NCBI GenBank assembly: GCA_947460595.1
Contig: CANHGS010000007.1
Coordinates: forward strand, 1 to 64,000
From: Bacteroidota bacterium
Lineage (GTDB): Bacteria; Bacteroidota; Bacteroidia; Chitinophagales; Chitinophagaceae
Length of the DNA stretch: 64,000 nucleotides
Reading direction: 5' to 3'
The notes beneath the pieces are model-generated. The model was not told the origin of the DNA. It did no database searches and saw only the letters and a program-made list of their open reading frames with translations. Numbering within the stretch: position 1 is the stretch's first letter; the number at the start of each line of letters is the position of its first letter. Of this stretch, positions 8,523-46,216 are shown piece by piece. The position numbers and the translations under genes were made by a program.

Positions 8523-9311
8523 ATGAACAAGTATTTATTAGGATCCATCTTAAGTATTACAAGCCTTGTCTATTCCATTACAGGGGCTGCTCAAAAGCGG
8601 GTGGTATTGGACAATTATTACAACAATGAAACCAATGCCAAAACAGGTTTGCCCTTTCACTATCTCTGGGCTGATACAGCTATTAGTGGGTTCTCACAAT
8701 TTGGAGATCTGTTTAAAGCCAAAGGAGCCGTTCTTTCAACGCTCAGCACCAAACCGGACAAACAGTCTTTAAAAAATACCGATATTTTTATCATGGTAGA
8801 TCCAGATACCAAAGATGAATCTGCTAATCCCAAATTCATGGATGCAACTACTGCTGCCAGTATTGCTGCCTGGGTAAAACAGGGTGGAGTGTTTTTATTA
8901 ATGGCCAATAACTATAAGAATGCAGAACTGGATAGTATTGGATTACTTACAAAATATTTTGGCATGCAGTTCACACACGAGACCCTGCATCCTGAATTGT
9001 CTGAAAAGGGTAAGCCCAGAAATTTTAATAGTTGTGCTTCTATTAACTTACCCAATCATCCTTTGTTTGAAGGAGTATCAAAAGTATTCTTAAAAGAAGT
9101 AGCACCCATTATGCTAGAAGGTCCTGCCAAAGCCATTCTTACAGAAAATGGTCAGACACTTATTGCAGAAGCCAAATATGGGAAGGGTTATGTATTGGTG
9201 ATTGGTGACCCTTGGTTATACAATGAATATATTGAGCATTTTTACCTGCCTGCTGATTTTGAAAACGGTAAAGCCGCAAGAAATTTGGTGAATTTGCTAA
9301 TGAGTAAATAG
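8523..9311 (+). CDS. Secreted DUF4350 / glutamine-amidotransferase-like (ThuA-like) protein
   Basis: Signal peptide; KRVVLDNYYNNETNAKTGLPFHYLWADTAISGFSQFGDLFKAKGA...DIFIMVDPDTKDE...AWVKQGGVFLLMANN. Confidence 0.6.
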   Translation: MNKYLLGSILSITSLVYSITGAAQKRVVLDNYYNNETNAKTGLPFHYLWADTAISGFSQFGDLFKAKGAVLSTLSTKPDKQSLKNTDIFIMVDPDTKDESANPKFMDATTAASIAAWVKQGGVFLLMANNYKNAELDSIGLLTKYFGMQFTHETLHPELSEKGKPRNFNSCASINLPNHPLFEGVSKVFLKEVAPIMLEGPAKAILTENGQTLIAEAKYGKGYVLVIGDPWLYNEYIEHFYLPADFENGKAARNLVNLLMSK

Positions 9312-9373: not shown

Positions 9374-9409
9374 AAAAAAGGCTGACTCAAATTTGAGCCA
9401 GCCTTTTTG
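9374..9409 (+). terminator. Bidirectional Rho-independent terminator between convergent genes
   Basis: AAAAAAGGCTGACTCAAATTTGAGCCAGCCTTTTT: long inverted repeat with flanking A and T tracts. Confidence 0.85.
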
Positions 9410-35184: not shown

Positions 35185-37158
35185 ATGAAACAATTTTTTA
35201 CCACTGGGGCATTCCTGTTTTTAATGGGATTTGTAGCTATGGCCCAGACTCCCAGAAATATTGTCATCAACGCCAATAAAACCATTGCAAATATTGAGCC
35301 CACCATGTGGGGGGTGTTTTTTGAAGACATCAATTTTGGTGCAGATGGTGGTATTTATGCAGAGCTAATCAAGAACCGCTCATTTGAATTTTTCAAACCC
35401 TTGATGGGTTGGAAAATTGAACAGAAACCATTTGTAGAAGGCGCTGTTACTGTCTTGAATAGGGCAGGGGAGAACCTTCCCAATCCTAGATTTTTGCGTG
35501 TAAAATCAGGCATAGACAATCAAGCGCCCATTGCCCTAGTGAATGAAGGTTTTAGAGGCATGGGCATCAAGGAAAAAAATGGCTATGATTTTTCAGTACA
35601 AAGCAGAACTACTGCTACTGGATTAAAAATGCATATTGAACTATTAGACGCCAAAAATAACCAGATTGGTTCTACGGTTTTGGCTATTCAGCCCAGTGCA
35701 GATTTTACCAAACAGGCTATTCATCTTGTTGCTACGGCCAACGAGAAAAAGGGTCAGTGCCGTATTTGGTTAGAAGGAAAGGGTACTATTGACTTAGACA
35801 TGGTTTCCTTATTTCCAGAAGATACTTGGAAGAAAAGACCCGGTGGAATGCGCGCCGATATGATTCAATTATTGGCTGATATGAAGCCTGGTTTTATTCG
35901 TTTTCCAGGTGGATGTATTGTGGAAGGGTTTGACCTTTCACAACGCTATCAATGGAAGAAAACCATTGGTCCTATTGAAGACCGCCAACTCATTATTAAC
36001 CGTTGGAATTTTGAATTCTCCAATAGAAATGCCCCTGATTATTTTCAAACCTTTGGACTTGGCTTCTTTGAATATTTTCAATTGGCGGAAGATATTGGGG
36101 CAGCACCACTGCCTATATTGAATTGTGGTATGGCCTGCCAGTTTAACTCGGCCGAGTTTGTACAATTAGACCAATTAGATCCCTATGTACAAGATGCCCT
36201 AGACTTGATTGAATTTGCCAATGGGGCAGTCACTACTACCTGGGGCGCCAAGCGTGCTGCCATGGGGCATCCTGCGCCTTTTCATTTAAAATTTTTGGGT
36301 ATTGGAAATGAAAACTGGGGGACTCAATACATTGAACGCCTAGCCCATTTTCAAAAAGCCATCAAGGCCAAATATCCAGCAATCAATTTGGTCACCAGTT
36401 CAGGAACGGATCCTTCTGGTGCGCGCTATGAATACTTGAACAAGGAATTACGTGGCATGAATGCCGATATCATTGACGAACATTTTTATAGAAACCGTGA
36501 TTGGTTTTTACAGAATGCCAAACGCTATGATACTTTTCCAAGAACGGGTTCTAAAGTAATGGCGGGTGAATATGCTTCTCATGCAGATGGCATTTCTGGC
36601 AATAAGAAAAACAATTGGCAATCTGCTTTGAGTGAAGCCGCGTTTATGACTGGTTTGGAACGCAATGCAGACGTAGTTCACCTAGCTTCTTATGCGCCTT
36701 TGTTTGCGCATCTTGACGCCTGGCAATGGGCCCCTGATTTAATTTGGGTTGATAACCTGCAATCTTATGGTACACCAGAATACCATGTACAAAAACTTTA
36801 TTCACTGTATAAGGGCAATAAAGCCGTTGAAACAAGTTGGAACAAAGCAGTAATAGCTGGTCAGGATAGTTTGTATGCTTCTTCAGTTGTAGATACTGTT
36901 GCCAATGAGCTAATCATCAAATTGGTTAATGTTTCTTTGTCTGCGAAACAAACACAATTACAATTAGAGGGCATTAAAAAAATGATACCGCAAGCAGAAC
37001 TCATACTGTTAAACAGTCCAGAACCTACTGCTATCAATAGCATTGATCAACCCATGTTGGTTGCACCAAAATCATCCACAGTGTTGATTAAAAAGAATAA
37101 ATTGGATTATGAGATACCTGCAAACAGTTTTGTAGTGATTAAAGTAAAAATGCAATAA
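35185..37158 (+). CDS. Alpha-L-arabinofuranosidase (GH51, secreted type)
   Basis: Signal peptide MKQFFTTGAFLFLMGFVAMAQ; TMWGVFFEDINFGADGGIYAELIKNRSFEF; FIRFPGGCIVEG; FLGIGNENWG; MAGEYASHA. Confidence 0.92.
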   Translation: MKQFFTTGAFLFLMGFVAMAQTPRNIVINANKTIANIEPTMWGVFFEDINFGADGGIYAELIKNRSFEFFKPLMGWKIEQKPFVEGAVTVLNRAGENLPNPRFLRVKSGIDNQAPIALVNEGFRGMGIKEKNGYDFSVQSRTTATGLKMHIELLDAKNNQIGSTVLAIQPSADFTKQAIHLVATANEKKGQCRIWLEGKGTIDLDMVSLFPEDTWKKRPGGMRADMIQLLADMKPGFIRFPGGCIVEGFDLSQRYQWKKTIGPIEDRQLIINRWNFEFSNRNAPDYFQTFGLGFFEYFQLAEDIGAAPLPILNCGMACQFNSAEFVQLDQLDPYVQDALDLIEFANGAVTTTWGAKRAAMGHPAPFHLKFLGIGNENWGTQYIERLAHFQKAIKAKYPAINLVTSSGTDPSGARYEYLNKELRGMNADIIDEHFYRNRDWFLQNAKRYDTFPRTGSKVMAGEYASHADGISGNKKNNWQSALSEAAFMTGLERNADVVHLASYAPLFAHLDAWQWAPDLIWVDNLQSYGTPEYHVQKLYSLYKGNKAVETSWNKAVIAGQDSLYASSVVDTVANELIIKLVNVSLSAKQTQLQLEGIKKMIPQAELILLNSPEPTAINSIDQPMLVAPKSSTVLIKKNKLDYEIPANSFVVIKVKMQ

Positions 37159-37181: not shown

Positions 37182-37219
37182 AAAAATGCCCCTCAACTTT
37201 ATATCGAGGGGCATTTTTG
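37182..37219 (+). terminator. Bidirectional Rho-independent terminator
   Basis: AAAAATGCCCCTC-aactttatatc-GAGGGGCATTTTT between convergent genes. Confidence 0.88.
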
Positions 37220-41204: not shown

Positions 41205-42874
41205 TGGTATTCGGTTTCTAGGAAAGCCCCCAATCTGTGATAGGCTTCCATTCTGGTTTGGTAATAATGAGCAGTACTTGCATCAGGATAATAAGTAGCA
41301 TCAAAACCCTGACCCATGCATTGCATGGCTTGTGCTACATTTTCAAATACTTGCGCTGCAGTTGCGGCAAACATAGCAGCACCTAATGCACAGGTTTGTT
41401 CACTTTTATGAATTCTAATGGGCATTTGCATCACGTTACTCATAACCTGCATAATATACGGAGATCTTTTGGCAACTCCGCCTAGTCCAATCAATCCTTT
41501 GATGGGTACACCTTCTAATACAAATCGGTCAACGATGGCTTTGGCTCCAAAGCAAGTGGCTTCTACAATGGCTTTGTAAACAGCAGCGGCATCTGTTGAT
41601 AGATTTAATCCACTAAATCCAGCTTTTAATAATTGATTGGCATCTGGTGTTCTTCTTCCATTTAACCAATCTATTGCCAATGGGTCATTGTCTTTCAAAG
41701 GCAACGCAGCGGCCGCGTTGGTGAGTTCTCCAATCATCTTTGAAGAAAGCTCTTCTAATAAATTTGTCTTGGTTTCGGCATCAATCAAATGGCTATTGCC
41801 AATGATTTGTTCCGTTGGTCCTAGTAAGAATTTCTTGAACCAAGCATAGCTATCGCCAAAGGCAGATTGGCCAGCTTCTAGTCCAATCATGCCAGGTAAC
41901 ACAGATCCGTCTACCTGGCCACAAATCCCTTTCACCAATATCTGTTCCATATCGGCCCTTGGGGCCACCAACATATCACAGGTAGAAGTTCCCATGACTT
42001 TACTCAAATGATAGGGTTCAATTTGGCCACCAACCGCGCCCATATGCGCATCAAATGCACCAACAGCAACAATGGTAGTGGCTGGAAGGCCTAATTTATT
42101 AGCCCACTGCGGCGATAGTGTTCCTGCAGATTGATCTGATGTGTAAGTGTCTACACCCAATGAAGCGGTATAACCATCTAGTAAAGGATCAAGACTAGTA
42201 AAGAACTCATTTGGGGGATATCCCCCAAATTCAGCAGACCACAAACCCTTGTGTCCTGCGGCACAAACCCCACGTTTCATTTGAGCAAGTTCTGTTTGGC
42301 CCGTGAGTAAGAAAGGAATCCAATCACAGTGCTCTACCCAAGAATGGCAGGCTGTTCTTACTTGTTCGTCTACATAAAGTATGTGTAAAAGTTTTGACCA
42401 GAACCATTCTGAAGAATAGATGCCACCCACAAATTGTAAATAATTGATGGGGAATTTTTTGGCGTGTTCATTAATGGCGGCTGCTTCATTCACAGAACTA
42501 TGGTCTTTCCACAAAACAAACATGGCATTTGGATTCTCTGCAAATGCGGGATGCATTGCTAGGGGAGTACCTGTTTTGTCAACTGCTACTGGCGTAGAAC
42601 CTGTGGTGTCAACGCCAATGCCACAAACGGCTGCAGCTATTGCTGGGCCACATTTTGCTACGCAGTCTTTGATAGTTGCTTCTAAACCTTCTACATAGTC
42701 TTGTGGGTGTTGTCTAAATTGATTGGCTGCTGGATTGCAATACAGTCCTGCCTTCCAGCGGGGATAATGAAATACGGAAGCAGCCATTTCTGTTCCGTTG
42801 CTGGTGTCTACAATAATAGCACGTACAGAGTCTGTTCCAAAATCAACACCTATGGCATATTTTTTCTCGGGCAT
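41201..42874 (-). CDS. araB: Ribulokinase
   Basis: YAIGVDFGTDSVRAIIVDTSNG; GIGVDTTGSTPVAVD; GLEAGQSAFGDSYAWF; GGVAKRSPYIMQVMSNVMQMPI. Confidence 0.96.
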   Translation of the reverse strand: MPEKKYAIGVDFGTDSVRAIIVDTSNGTEMAASVFHYPRWKAGLYCNPAANQFRQHPQDYVEGLEATIKDCVAKCGPAIAAAVCGIGVDTTGSTPVAVDKTGTPLAMHPAFAENPNAMFVLWKDHSSVNEAAAINEHAKKFPINYLQFVGGIYSSEWFWSKLLHILYVDEQVRTACHSWVEHCDWIPFLLTGQTELAQMKRGVCAAGHKGLWSAEFGGYPPNEFFTSLDPLLDGYTASLGVDTYTSDQSAGTLSPQWANKLGLPATTIVAVGAFDAHMGAVGGQIEPYHLSKVMGTSTCDMLVAPRADMEQILVKGICGQVDGSVLPGMIGLEAGQSAFGDSYAWFKKFLLGPTEQIIGNSHLIDAETKTNLLEELSSKMIGELTNAAAALPLKDNDPLAIDWLNGRRTPDANQLLKAGFSGLNLSTDAAAVYKAIVEATCFGAKAIVDRFVLEGVPIKGLIGLGGVAKRSPYIMQVMSNVMQMPIRIHKSEQTCALGAAMFAATAAQVFENVAQAMQCMGQGFDATYYPDASTAHYYQTRMEAYHRLGAFLETEYQ

Positions 42875-42895
42875 ACAACAATCGATTTTGTATAT

Positions 42896-42931
42896 GTGTC
42901 AAATTAACACTTATTTAGTCATCCAATCAAA
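42896..42931 (-). promoter_or_regulatory. Putative araBDA promoter with overlapping AraR-like operator
   Basis: Minus strand reads TTTG-N20-TTAATTTG (Bacteroidetes -33/-7 like); the near-palindrome GTGTTAATTTGACAC covers the -7. Confidence 0.5.
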
Positions 42932-42945
42932 TTTTATTGCTTGGC

Positions 42946-43650
42946 TTATTTGATATTATCTGGATTTGGGATAAAATTTAAAAAGGCATGAAAATTGGCG
43001 GCATACCTGCGCTTGTCTAATTTATAATAATAGGCGCCTTTCTTGCTATTCTCCTTATCCTTGTCTTTTTGCTTAATCAGGAGCTTGGTAGATTGAATTT
43101 TTCGGCTAAAATTCCGCTTATCAAATACGGTATCAAAGATTCCTTCATAGAGATTTTGTAATTGAGGGACTGTAAATTTCTCTGGCAATAATTCAAATAA
43201 GATGGGGTGAAAAGCCGCTTTATAACGCAAGCGTTTTTTAGCCATTTCTACCATTTGTTCGTGGTCAAAAATGAGTCTGGGTGCGGATTTGATGGGAAAC
43301 CACTCGGCATGGTATTCATCATTTAGCTGACGTTCATACTGGTGAATATCAATCAGTGCAAAATAGGCAACCGAGATGGTTCTTTCAATGGGGTCACGGT
43401 CTGGGTTTCCAAAAGCGTGTAATTGTTCTAAGTATACCCCTTCTAGTCCTGTCATCTGGTTTAGAATCCGGTTGGCACCTTTTTCAAAATCTTCTTCTTC
43501 TCGGATAAAACTTCCAATGAGACTCCATTTACCTTTTTCGGGTTCTAGTTCTCTTTGAACAAGGAGTAGTTTTAACTCGGTACCGTCAAAACCGAATATG
43601 ATACAGTCTACGGCAACCAGGAAACGTGTTTGTTTTTGATACTTTGGCAT
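42946..43650 (-). CDS. araR: Nudix-family transcriptional regulator, AraR/NrtR-like
   Basis: FLVAVDCIIFGFDGTELKLLLVQRELEPEKGKWSLIGSFIREEEDFEKGANRILNQMTGL, with degenerate Nudix box; C-terminal wHTH-like FTVPQLQNLYEGIFDTVFDKRNFSRKI; located next to araBDA. Confidence 0.8.
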   Translation of the reverse strand: MPKYQKQTRFLVAVDCIIFGFDGTELKLLLVQRELEPEKGKWSLIGSFIREEEDFEKGANRILNQMTGLEGVYLEQLHAFGNPDRDPIERTISVAYFALIDIHQYERQLNDEYHAEWFPIKSAPRLIFDHEQMVEMAKKRLRYKAAFHPILFELLPEKFTVPQLQNLYEGIFDTVFDKRNFSRKIQSTKLLIKQKDKDKENSKKGAYYYKLDKRRYAANFHAFLNFIPNPDNIK

Positions 43651-43723: not shown

Positions 43724-43770
43724 AAAATAAGTGTAAAAAGTACATTTAATATCAAAATTCCCTAGATTTG
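43724..43770 (+). promoter_or_regulatory. Putative galK promoter (TAGATTTG) with upstream AraR-like site
   Basis: AAATAAGTGTAAAAAGTACA (43725-43744) resembles the araB site AAATAAGTGTTAATTTGACA; -7-like TAGATTTG at 43763-43770. Confidence 0.45.
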
Positions 43771-43823
43771 TACTGCTGTTTTACATAATATTTTGAGTGA
43801 GTAAGTAAGATTAGCAGATTCAG

Positions 43824-43858
43824 AAATTGAGCTGAGGCGTGCCTCGGCTCAATTTTTT
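43824..43858 (+). terminator. Intrinsic terminator-like hairpin in the galK 5' leader
   Basis: AAATTGAGCTGAGGC-gt-GCCTCGGCTCAATTTTTT with no + strand gene ending upstream. Confidence 0.75.
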
Positions 43859-43873
43859 AGAAGTTTACATAAA

Positions 43874-45052
43874 TTGCCTGTCATGTCTGAAAAAAACAAC
43901 TGCGCCGCTTTGGTGCAAACCCAATATACCAAAGCATTTGGTAGTCCAGAACTGATGGTCAAGTCTCCTGGAAGAATCAACTTGATTGGAGAACATACCG
44001 ATTATAATCTTGGATTTGTATTACCAGCGGCCATTGATAAAGCCATCTATATAGCCATTGGTAAAAGAACAGATCAGAACATCTGTATTCACGCTGCAGA
44101 CTTGGATCAGTCCATAGAAATGAGTCTTGAGTCCTTAGAACCATCGCCCAAGCAGTGGCCTAATTATTTGTTAGGTATTGCAGATCAATTAAAAAAAGCA
44201 GGGTATCCTATCTCTGGCTTTAATGCAGTAGTAGCGGGTGATGTGCCACTTGGCGCAGGGCTTTCTTCTTCAGCGGCAGTTGAATGTGCTACTGTTTTTG
44301 CATTGAATGAATTATTTGTTTTGGGTATGTCCAAATTAGAAATGGTTCGCATGGCGCAAAAAGCGGAAAATGAATTTGTGGGTTTACAATGTGGCATCAT
44401 GGATATGTTTGCCAGCATATTTGGTAAAGCAGATTCAGTAATTCAATTAGACTGCTGCTCACTGGATTATCATTATATGCCTTTTTACCAAAAAGGCTTT
44501 CAAATTGTTTTATTAGACACTTGTGTGAAACACTCATTGGCTTCTTCGGAATATAATACCAGAAGAGCCGAATGTGAAGCAGGTGTTGCCATCATTGCTC
44601 AACAGTACCCACAAGTGAAAAGCTTGCGTGACGCGGATTGGCGAATGGTAGAAAACTTATTGGCCGGGGGCGATGTTAAAGTGTATCAGCGTTGTAAATT
44701 TATTGTAGCGGAGATAGCTAGGTTACAAGCCGGATGCCAAGATTTGGTGGCTGGAGATATAACTGCATTTGGTTTGAAAATGTTTGAAACACATAGGGGT
44801 TTGAGTCAGGAATATGAAGTGAGTTGTAGTGAATTGGATTTTTTGGCAGATTACGCCAAGACCCAATCGGCAGTTATAGGCGCTAGAATGATGGGTGGTG
44901 GATTTGGCGGCTGCACCATTAATTTGGTCAAAGATGCTTCTGTAGATACTTTTATTGCTGGCGCGGCTGTTGCATTTAAAAATAGGTTCCAACAAGATTT
45001 GAAATCGTATATTGTAACCATTGGTGATGGCACCAGTTTAATTAACTTTTAA
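43874..45052 (+). CDS. galK: Galactokinase
   Basis: SPGRINLIGEHTDYNLGFVLPAAI; GDVPLGAGLSSSAAVE; GLQCGIMDMFAS; RMMGGGFGGCTINLV. Confidence 0.97.
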   Translation: MPVMSEKNNCAALVQTQYTKAFGSPELMVKSPGRINLIGEHTDYNLGFVLPAAIDKAIYIAIGKRTDQNICIHAADLDQSIEMSLESLEPSPKQWPNYLLGIADQLKKAGYPISGFNAVVAGDVPLGAGLSSSAAVECATVFALNELFVLGMSKLEMVRMAQKAENEFVGLQCGIMDMFASIFGKADSVIQLDCCSLDYHYMPFYQKGFQIVLLDTCVKHSLASSEYNTRRAECEAGVAIIAQQYPQVKSLRDADWRMVENLLAGGDVKVYQRCKFIVAEIARLQAGCQDLVAGDITAFGLKMFETHRGLSQEYEVSCSELDFLADYAKTQSAVIGARMMGGGFGGCTINLVKDASVDTFIAGAAVAFKNRFQQDLKSYIVTIGDGTSLINF

Positions 45053-45061
45053 ACAATACAT

Positions 45062-46216
45062 ATGAAATATTGCTTTGACGCCCTAGCCATCTTTGGCTTT
45101 GCTGGACTAGTTGGATGCGCCAATCCGGAAGCTTCCAAAACAGAAAAAACTGATAGTGCAACTGTTCCCAACAAAGGATCATACGCGCAAAAAGTAGACG
45201 AGAAGCAAGTGGAACTATATGAGCTCTCCAATAAAAATGGACTCAAAATTTCCATTACCAATTTTGGGGGCAGAATTGTCAGTTTTATTGTACCCGATAA
45301 GGCTGGAAAGCCCACGGATATTGTATTGGGCTACGATAGTTTGAATCATTTTTTACACAATAAGGAAGCCTATTTTGGCGCATTGATTGGCCGATATGGT
45401 AATAGAATTGCCAAAGGTAGTTTTCAATTAGAAGGCAAGACCTATCAATTACCCATTAACAACGCACCCAATAGTTTGCATGGTGGTCCCAAGGGCTTTC
45501 ACAACCAAGTTTGGGACGCCAAATTGATTGATGCGCAACACCTAGAATTGCAATATATGTCTAAGGATGGAGAAGAAGGATATCCTGGCAATCTAAGCGC
45601 TAAAGTGGTCTATACTTTAACGGATGAAAATGCGCTTCAAATTGATTATACCGCTACTACAGATAAAGCTACGGTAGTGAATTTAACCAACCATGCTTAT
45701 TTTAATTTGAATGGTGCTGGTGCAGCTACCATTAATGATCATTTGCTTCAAATTAACGCAGACCATTTTACCCCAGTAGATAGCACCCTGATTCCTATAG
45801 GAGTTTTGGCTGCAGTAAAAGGAACCGCTTTTGATTTTACCAAAGCCCATGCTATTGGAGATAGTCTTGGATCAAAAGACATTCAAATGATCAATGGCAA
45901 AGGCTATGACCACAATTTTGCTTTGAATAGAACAGCAGTTCCTGGTTTGCAAACCGCCGCTACTGTTTATGCACCAAGTACTGGTATACACATGGAAGTG
46001 TTGACCTTGGAGCCAGGTATCCAGTTTTATGGAGGAAATTTCTTAGATGGAACCTTGGTGGGTAAACAAGCCAAGCCTTATGCTTTTAGGTCTGCATTTT
46101 GCTTGGAAACCCAGCATTTTCCTGATGCGCCCAATCAGAAAAGCTTTGCTAGTACCATTTTGTTGCCAGGTAAAACCTATAGTACCCAAACCGTGTATAA
46201 GTTTAGCACTAAATAA
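45062..46216 (+). CDS. galM: Aldose 1-epimerase, lipoprotein
   Basis: Lipobox-like FAGLVGCANPE; ITNFGGRIVSFIVPDKAGKPTDIVLGYDSL; GRYGNRIAKGSF; NLTNHAYFNLNG; PGIQFYGGNFLDG. Confidence 0.94.
   Translation: MKYCFDALAIFGFAGLVGCANPEASKTEKTDSATVPNKGSYAQKVDEKQVELYELSNKNGLKISITNFGGRIVSFIVPDKAGKPTDIVLGYDSLNHFLHNKEAYFGALIGRYGNRIAKGSFQLEGKTYQLPINNAPNSLHGGPKGFHNQVWDAKLIDAQHLELQYMSKDGEEGYPGNLSAKVVYTLTDENALQIDYTATTDKATVVNLTNHAYFNLNGAGAATINDHLLQINADHFTPVDSTLIPIGVLAAVKGTAFDFTKAHAIGDSLGSKDIQMINGKGYDHNFALNRTAVPGLQTAATVYAPSTGIHMEVLTLEPGIQFYGGNFLDGTLVGKQAKPYAFRSAFCLETQHFPDAPNQKSFASTILLPGKTYSTQTVYKFSTK

Follow-up and report, generated by a model that had tools for sequence, protein, structure and literature searches.

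Attenuators that work through an intrinsic terminator, whether of the trp type, in riboswitches or in protein-responsive leaders, combine a promoter, a structured leader, a terminator-like hairpin and a coding region, and their structures show compensatory changes. The leader that precedes galK in the stretch of DNA analysed here (64,000 nucleotides from a Chitinophagaceae bacterium, hereafter the window) resembles them in all these respects. Unlike them, it has no leader peptide, no convincing antiterminator and no known aptamer, and it was found in one genus only. The regulatory setting is closest to the Bacteroides AraR regulon (BT0354; PMC4666351), with which the locus shares a homologous regulator, similar operators (before ara genes and in araR-galK) and araB and araM-like neighbours. 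In contrast to that regulon, galK here heads a divergent operon and a structured leader follows the operator; galK is unmentioned in the text of the Bacteroides paper. Intergenic sRNAs of Bacteroides with a transcription start site and an intrinsic terminator, such as GibS and BTnc231, have the same terminator-bounded architecture, whereas the galK leader is always fused to the 5' UTR of galK. Rfam gave no match in the window at gathering score, the best sub-threshold one being BTnc231 (21.1 against 80.4 bits), and literature searches for leaders of galK, for attenuators of sugar genes in Bacteroides and for riboswitches that respond to galactose yielded nothing directly relevant. The arrangement of AraR and leader at galK is undescribed, but not unprecedented.

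The araR-galK locus

Three genes define the locus:

43883..45052, + strand: galK, the galactokinase gene, which opens the operon; Pfam matches to GHMP kinase and the galactokinase signature, ATG conserved in relatives
45062..46216, + strand: galM, an araM-like aldose 1-epimerase with a lipoprotein-like N-terminus; Pfam Aldose_epim, E 1e-90
42946..43650, - strand: araR, homologue of the Nudix/NrtR-family arabinose repressor; NrtR_WHD, NUDIX and AraR_C above curated cut-offs

The divergent neighbour of galK that an earlier note on this DNA had reported is araR, beyond which araB is located. The same note placed the end of the nearest upstream + strand gene at 37158, followed by a terminator of its own, and this holds as well: a hairpin lies at 37182-37218. 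It is a perfect inverted repeat of 13 bp (AAAAATGCCCCTC/GAGGGGCATTTTT), lies between two converging genes, which end at 37158 (+) and 37239 (-), and is probably a shared two-way terminator. Elsewhere in the window a terminator-like palindrome, AAAAAGGCTGACTCAAATTTGAGCCAGCCTTTTT, is found at 9375-9408 between two genes that converge on it, with ends at 9311 (+) and 9426 (-), and a perfect 22-bp palindrome, ATTTGGGGGATATCCCCCAAAT, lies at 42209-42230 within the araB coding region.

Two hairpins in the galK leader

Between the predicted promoter and galK the RNA would form two hairpins:

43773-43784/43805-43817, + strand: P1 hairpin, CTGCTGTTTTAC/GTAAGATTAGCAG, with conserved TTTGAGTGAG in the loop; 95.8% of alignment cells paired
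43822..43858, + strand: P2 terminator-like hairpin with T-tract; 97.2% of cells paired

P2 is the hairpin of 14-15 bp that had been noticed earlier, when P1 and the AraR operator described below were overlooked. The inverted repeat AAATTGAGCTGAGGC-gt-GCCTCGGCTCAATTT was found again at 43824-43838/43841-43855, with arms of 15 bp that are 93% complementary. The six T's said to follow it are present, but three of them pair with AAA of the stem. The distance of 16 bp from the hairpin to the galK ATG has to be corrected: from the last T to the conserved ATG (43883) there are 24 nt, and at 43874, closer to the hairpin, stands a TTG in frame with it. The loop of this hairpin, at 2 nt, was too short for a generic terminator scan that required loops of 3-8 nt, which is why the scan did not list it.

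The RNA from 43771 to 43885 folds at -33.8 kcal/mol, compared with -21.8 +/- 2.8 kcal/mol for 200 dinucleotide shuffles, none of which was as low (z = -4.35). P1 starts 3 nt past the -7 element and hence lies where the RNA is predicted to begin.

Distribution among relatives

The same leader is present upstream of galK in the related genomes G035 and G027, and the first covariance model was built from these two leaders and that of the window. By covariance model the leader was found in 13 of 147 genomes of the same genus (E < 1e-4). In all 13 loci it lies between divergent araR and galK, and wherever the fetched sequence reaches, araB is found beyond araR and an araM-like galM after galK. Outside the genus, the matches of the order-wide search of 399 genomes (G215, G350 and G374; E 0.0006-0.002) were rejected as unrelated hairpins without the conserved motifs. 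The 13-sequence model found none outside the genus at E <= 0.001 in family- and class-wide samples, in searches whose stricter filters can lose weak matches. An exact-pattern scan with TGAGTRAGYRNGTRAGATTRGC over 264 Gb of GTDB r220 returned 9 contigs, all of them already among those found.

The sequence is single-copy in its own genome, where the 13-sequence model recovered no second locus apart from the leader's own hairpin on the opposite strand. This single copy speaks against a dispersed repeat or mobile palindrome; within the window, zero chance matches to the 22-base core pattern are expected.

In six sister lineages (G064, G071, G073, G079, G105, G117) araR is divergent from araM with no galK alongside, and the operator AATAAGTGTTTTT... 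is kept. Here the leader is absent throughout, so that a comparative contrast emerges between the 13 araR-galK pairs found, all of which have it, and these six araR-araM pairs. In a tree of 21 AraR sequences, which covered 11 of the 13 genomes with the leader (all but G114 and G138, whose sequences were incomplete), the leader-bearing sequences fell into two groups and the leaderless set was nearer to one of them. This pattern fits loss of the leader together with galK as well as a separate gain.

This distribution bears on the idea, raised in the earlier note, of an independent sRNA. The leader could be an sRNA gene using the same promoter as galK, whose terminated RNA of about 80-85 nt would act in trans and might use the conserved P1 loop UUUGAGUGAG as its seed. 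Together with the promoter and the terminator, this loop would indeed make a complete sRNA-like unit, and a short terminated leader RNA is to be expected. However, the genomes searched yielded no copy at any place other than galK, all 13 copies stand directly before galK, and none is found in the sister lineages where araM lacks galK in front. Moreover, the hairpin leaves only 24 nt for a promoter of galK's own. We therefore regard an sRNA gene as distinctly improbable.

Promoter and AraR-type operator

Two candidate AraR sites flank araR:

43726..43748: candidate AraR-type operator, AATAAGTGTAAAAAGTACATTTA, just upstream of the galK promoter
42892..42912, - strand: second candidate AraR-type site, AAGTGTTAATTTGACACATAT, directly upstream of araB

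The -7 element proposed in the earlier note stands: TAGATTTG at 43763-43770 (+) fits the Bacteroidetes -7 promoter consensus TAnnTTTG (PMC7366714). TAnnTTT[GA] is found at the equivalent position in most of the 13 loci, with TACTTTCG in G106. In the operator, the AATAAGTGT half-site and the TACAWTTA half-site are invariant in 13 of 13 araR-galK intergenic regions, and the operator is more conserved than any transcribed part of the leader. AAGTGTTAATTTGACACGAAT or close variants precede araB in the relatives examined. Published BtAraR sites include AAAGTGTAAAAAAGACACTTAT, shown by EMSA, and AAAAGTGTTACTTTTACACCCA (PMC4666351); in a comparison by eye both AATAAGTGTAAAAAGTACATTTA and AAGTGTTAATTTGACACATAT resemble the published sites. 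In G135 (L079) the divergent neighbour of the araR orthologue looks SusC-like, and two AATAAGTGTTTTATTTACAATTA-like operator sites lie between the two genes.

By its nearby araR orthologue and the conserved AraR-type operator, the galK promoter can be assigned as a predicted member of the AraR regulon. That the hairpin is embedded in an AraR-type operator/promoter region is consistent with a link to arabinose.

Conservation of the leader structure

A covariance search of the leader in relatives, which the earlier note had proposed as a check, bore out the structure: it is conserved with compensatory changes in the 13 genomes. The 13-sequence alignment has 25 pairs in two helices, with 96.6% of cells paired, and RNAalifold recovered the same 25 pairs. 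When the partner was slid by one column, pairing fell to 52-54%. Two-sided compensatory changes occurred at 6 pairs (two in P1, four in P2) and in 8 cells, compared with 2.2 pairs and 2.4 cells in shuffles; the sequences had been aligned by fitting them to the structure of the model, and the shuffle controls leave the relatedness among the 13 sequences in place. The duplex energy of P1 was better than that of 300 out of 300 column shuffles. The most conserved transcribed parts are the P1 loop TTTGAG, the P1 3' strand GTAAGATTAGC and the lower stem of P2. The case for conservation at the RNA level with compensatory change thus appears good, albeit not conclusive.

The spacing of the conserved P2 arms ranges from 8 to 14 nt among the relatives, a variation that a hairpin tolerates. 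As a 15-bp near-perfect inverted repeat within a regulatory region, the palindrome might also be a DNA site, either an operator bound by a regulator in dimeric form or a palindrome that is mobile or arose by chance. But the variable arm spacing and the compensatory changes in the stem argue against this, and a better candidate for the AraR operator lies upstream. We consider such a DNA site very unlikely.

P1 is disrupted in G140, which keeps P2, and in G114. In the latter (L084/L104) araR appears frameshifted near residue 41-57, and in the leader P1 is damaged and a proper T-tract is missing, which may reflect joint decay or an error in the MAG. These losses of P1 or the T-tract in some genomes indicate that the constraint acts in most, not all, lineages.

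Termination and a possible switch

In the window the P2 stem has an energy of -22.6 kcal/mol and a T-score of 4.32, which makes it a putative intrinsic terminator by stem and U-tract. The predicted order of -7 element (43763-43770), P2 (43822-43858) and ATG (43883) puts this terminator-like hairpin between the promoter and the first codon. In 10 of the 13 loci the T-tract score is 4.3-5.0, directly after stems of -18 to -23 kcal/mol; in G106, G129 and G114 the T-tract is weak, being interrupted or short, and P2 is still kept.

Alternatively, P1 and P2 could act within the 5' UTR of the complete galK mRNA without terminating transcription, protecting the 5' end from decay or serving as a site for an RNA-binding protein or an sRNA; the U-run would then mostly serve to pair with AAA of the 5' arm. 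This would fit the position of P1, which begins at or within a few nucleotides of the predicted 5' end, the retention of the lower P2 stem in G129 and G114 despite the interrupted T-tract, and the conservation of the stem sequence beyond the needs of pairing. Yet a good T-tract directly follows a strong stem in those 10 loci, and similar-looking hairpins occur at other gene ends in the window. A structure without termination thus seems rather unlikely, and early termination at P2 is the reading that we prefer.

If P2 terminates transcription, the question arises whether P1 controls it. Alternative pairings were suspected because the P1 5' strand is similar to the P2 3' arm, as is the P1 3' strand to the P2 5' arm. 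A search for an antiterminator, also among the checks suggested in the earlier note, gave no convincing one: the cross-pairings of the P1 5' strand with the P2 5' arm and of the P1 3' strand with the P2 3' arm were no better than column shuffles, and the third, between the P1 loop and the P2 3' arm, was marginal (7 of 300 shuffles, before correction for multiple tests). A switch between P1 and P2 is possible but unsupported by these comparisons. Nor is any reading frame for a leader peptide conserved across the 13 leaders. The earlier proposal of a candidate attenuator thus gains support in part, from a conserved structure always before galK in 13 genomes; neither a convincing antiterminator nor a leader peptide was found.

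Proposed mechanism

Directly supported are the elements, their order, their RNA-level conservation with compensatory changes and their restriction to galK. From these we infer the transcription start, the termination and any regulation. Our favored interpretation, to which we assign a probability of roughly 0.55, is that AraR represses the galK-araM promoter and that the leader behind this promoter causes premature termination. The repressed promoter (operator 43726-43748, -7 element 43763-43770) would start an RNA near 43775, and the nascent RNA would fold immediately into P1 and then into P2. P2 would act as an intrinsic terminator with an end near 43858; some polymerases would stop there and release an RNA of about 80-85 nt, and the remaining ones would read through into galK and araM. 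Hence the leader would set, and perhaps condition, galK expression below the AraR switch, and galK is probably under dual control by an arabinose-responsive repressor and early termination.

A more far-reaching proposal is that the P1 domain, whose UUUGAGURAG loop is conserved, acts as a sensor and thereby switches termination at P2, its signal being a sugar or sugar phosphate from galactose/arabinose metabolism or else a dedicated RNA-binding protein. This would make it an undescribed class of Chitinophagaceae leader acting below AraR, but we regard it as speculative and improbable.

Few cases in which a leader RNA controls sugar genes are known to have been worked out in Bacteroidota. If termination at P2 holds true, galK-araM would be controlled both at initiation, by AraR in response to arabinose, and after initiation, by the leader, and the locus would be a compact, testable example of such control in this phylum.
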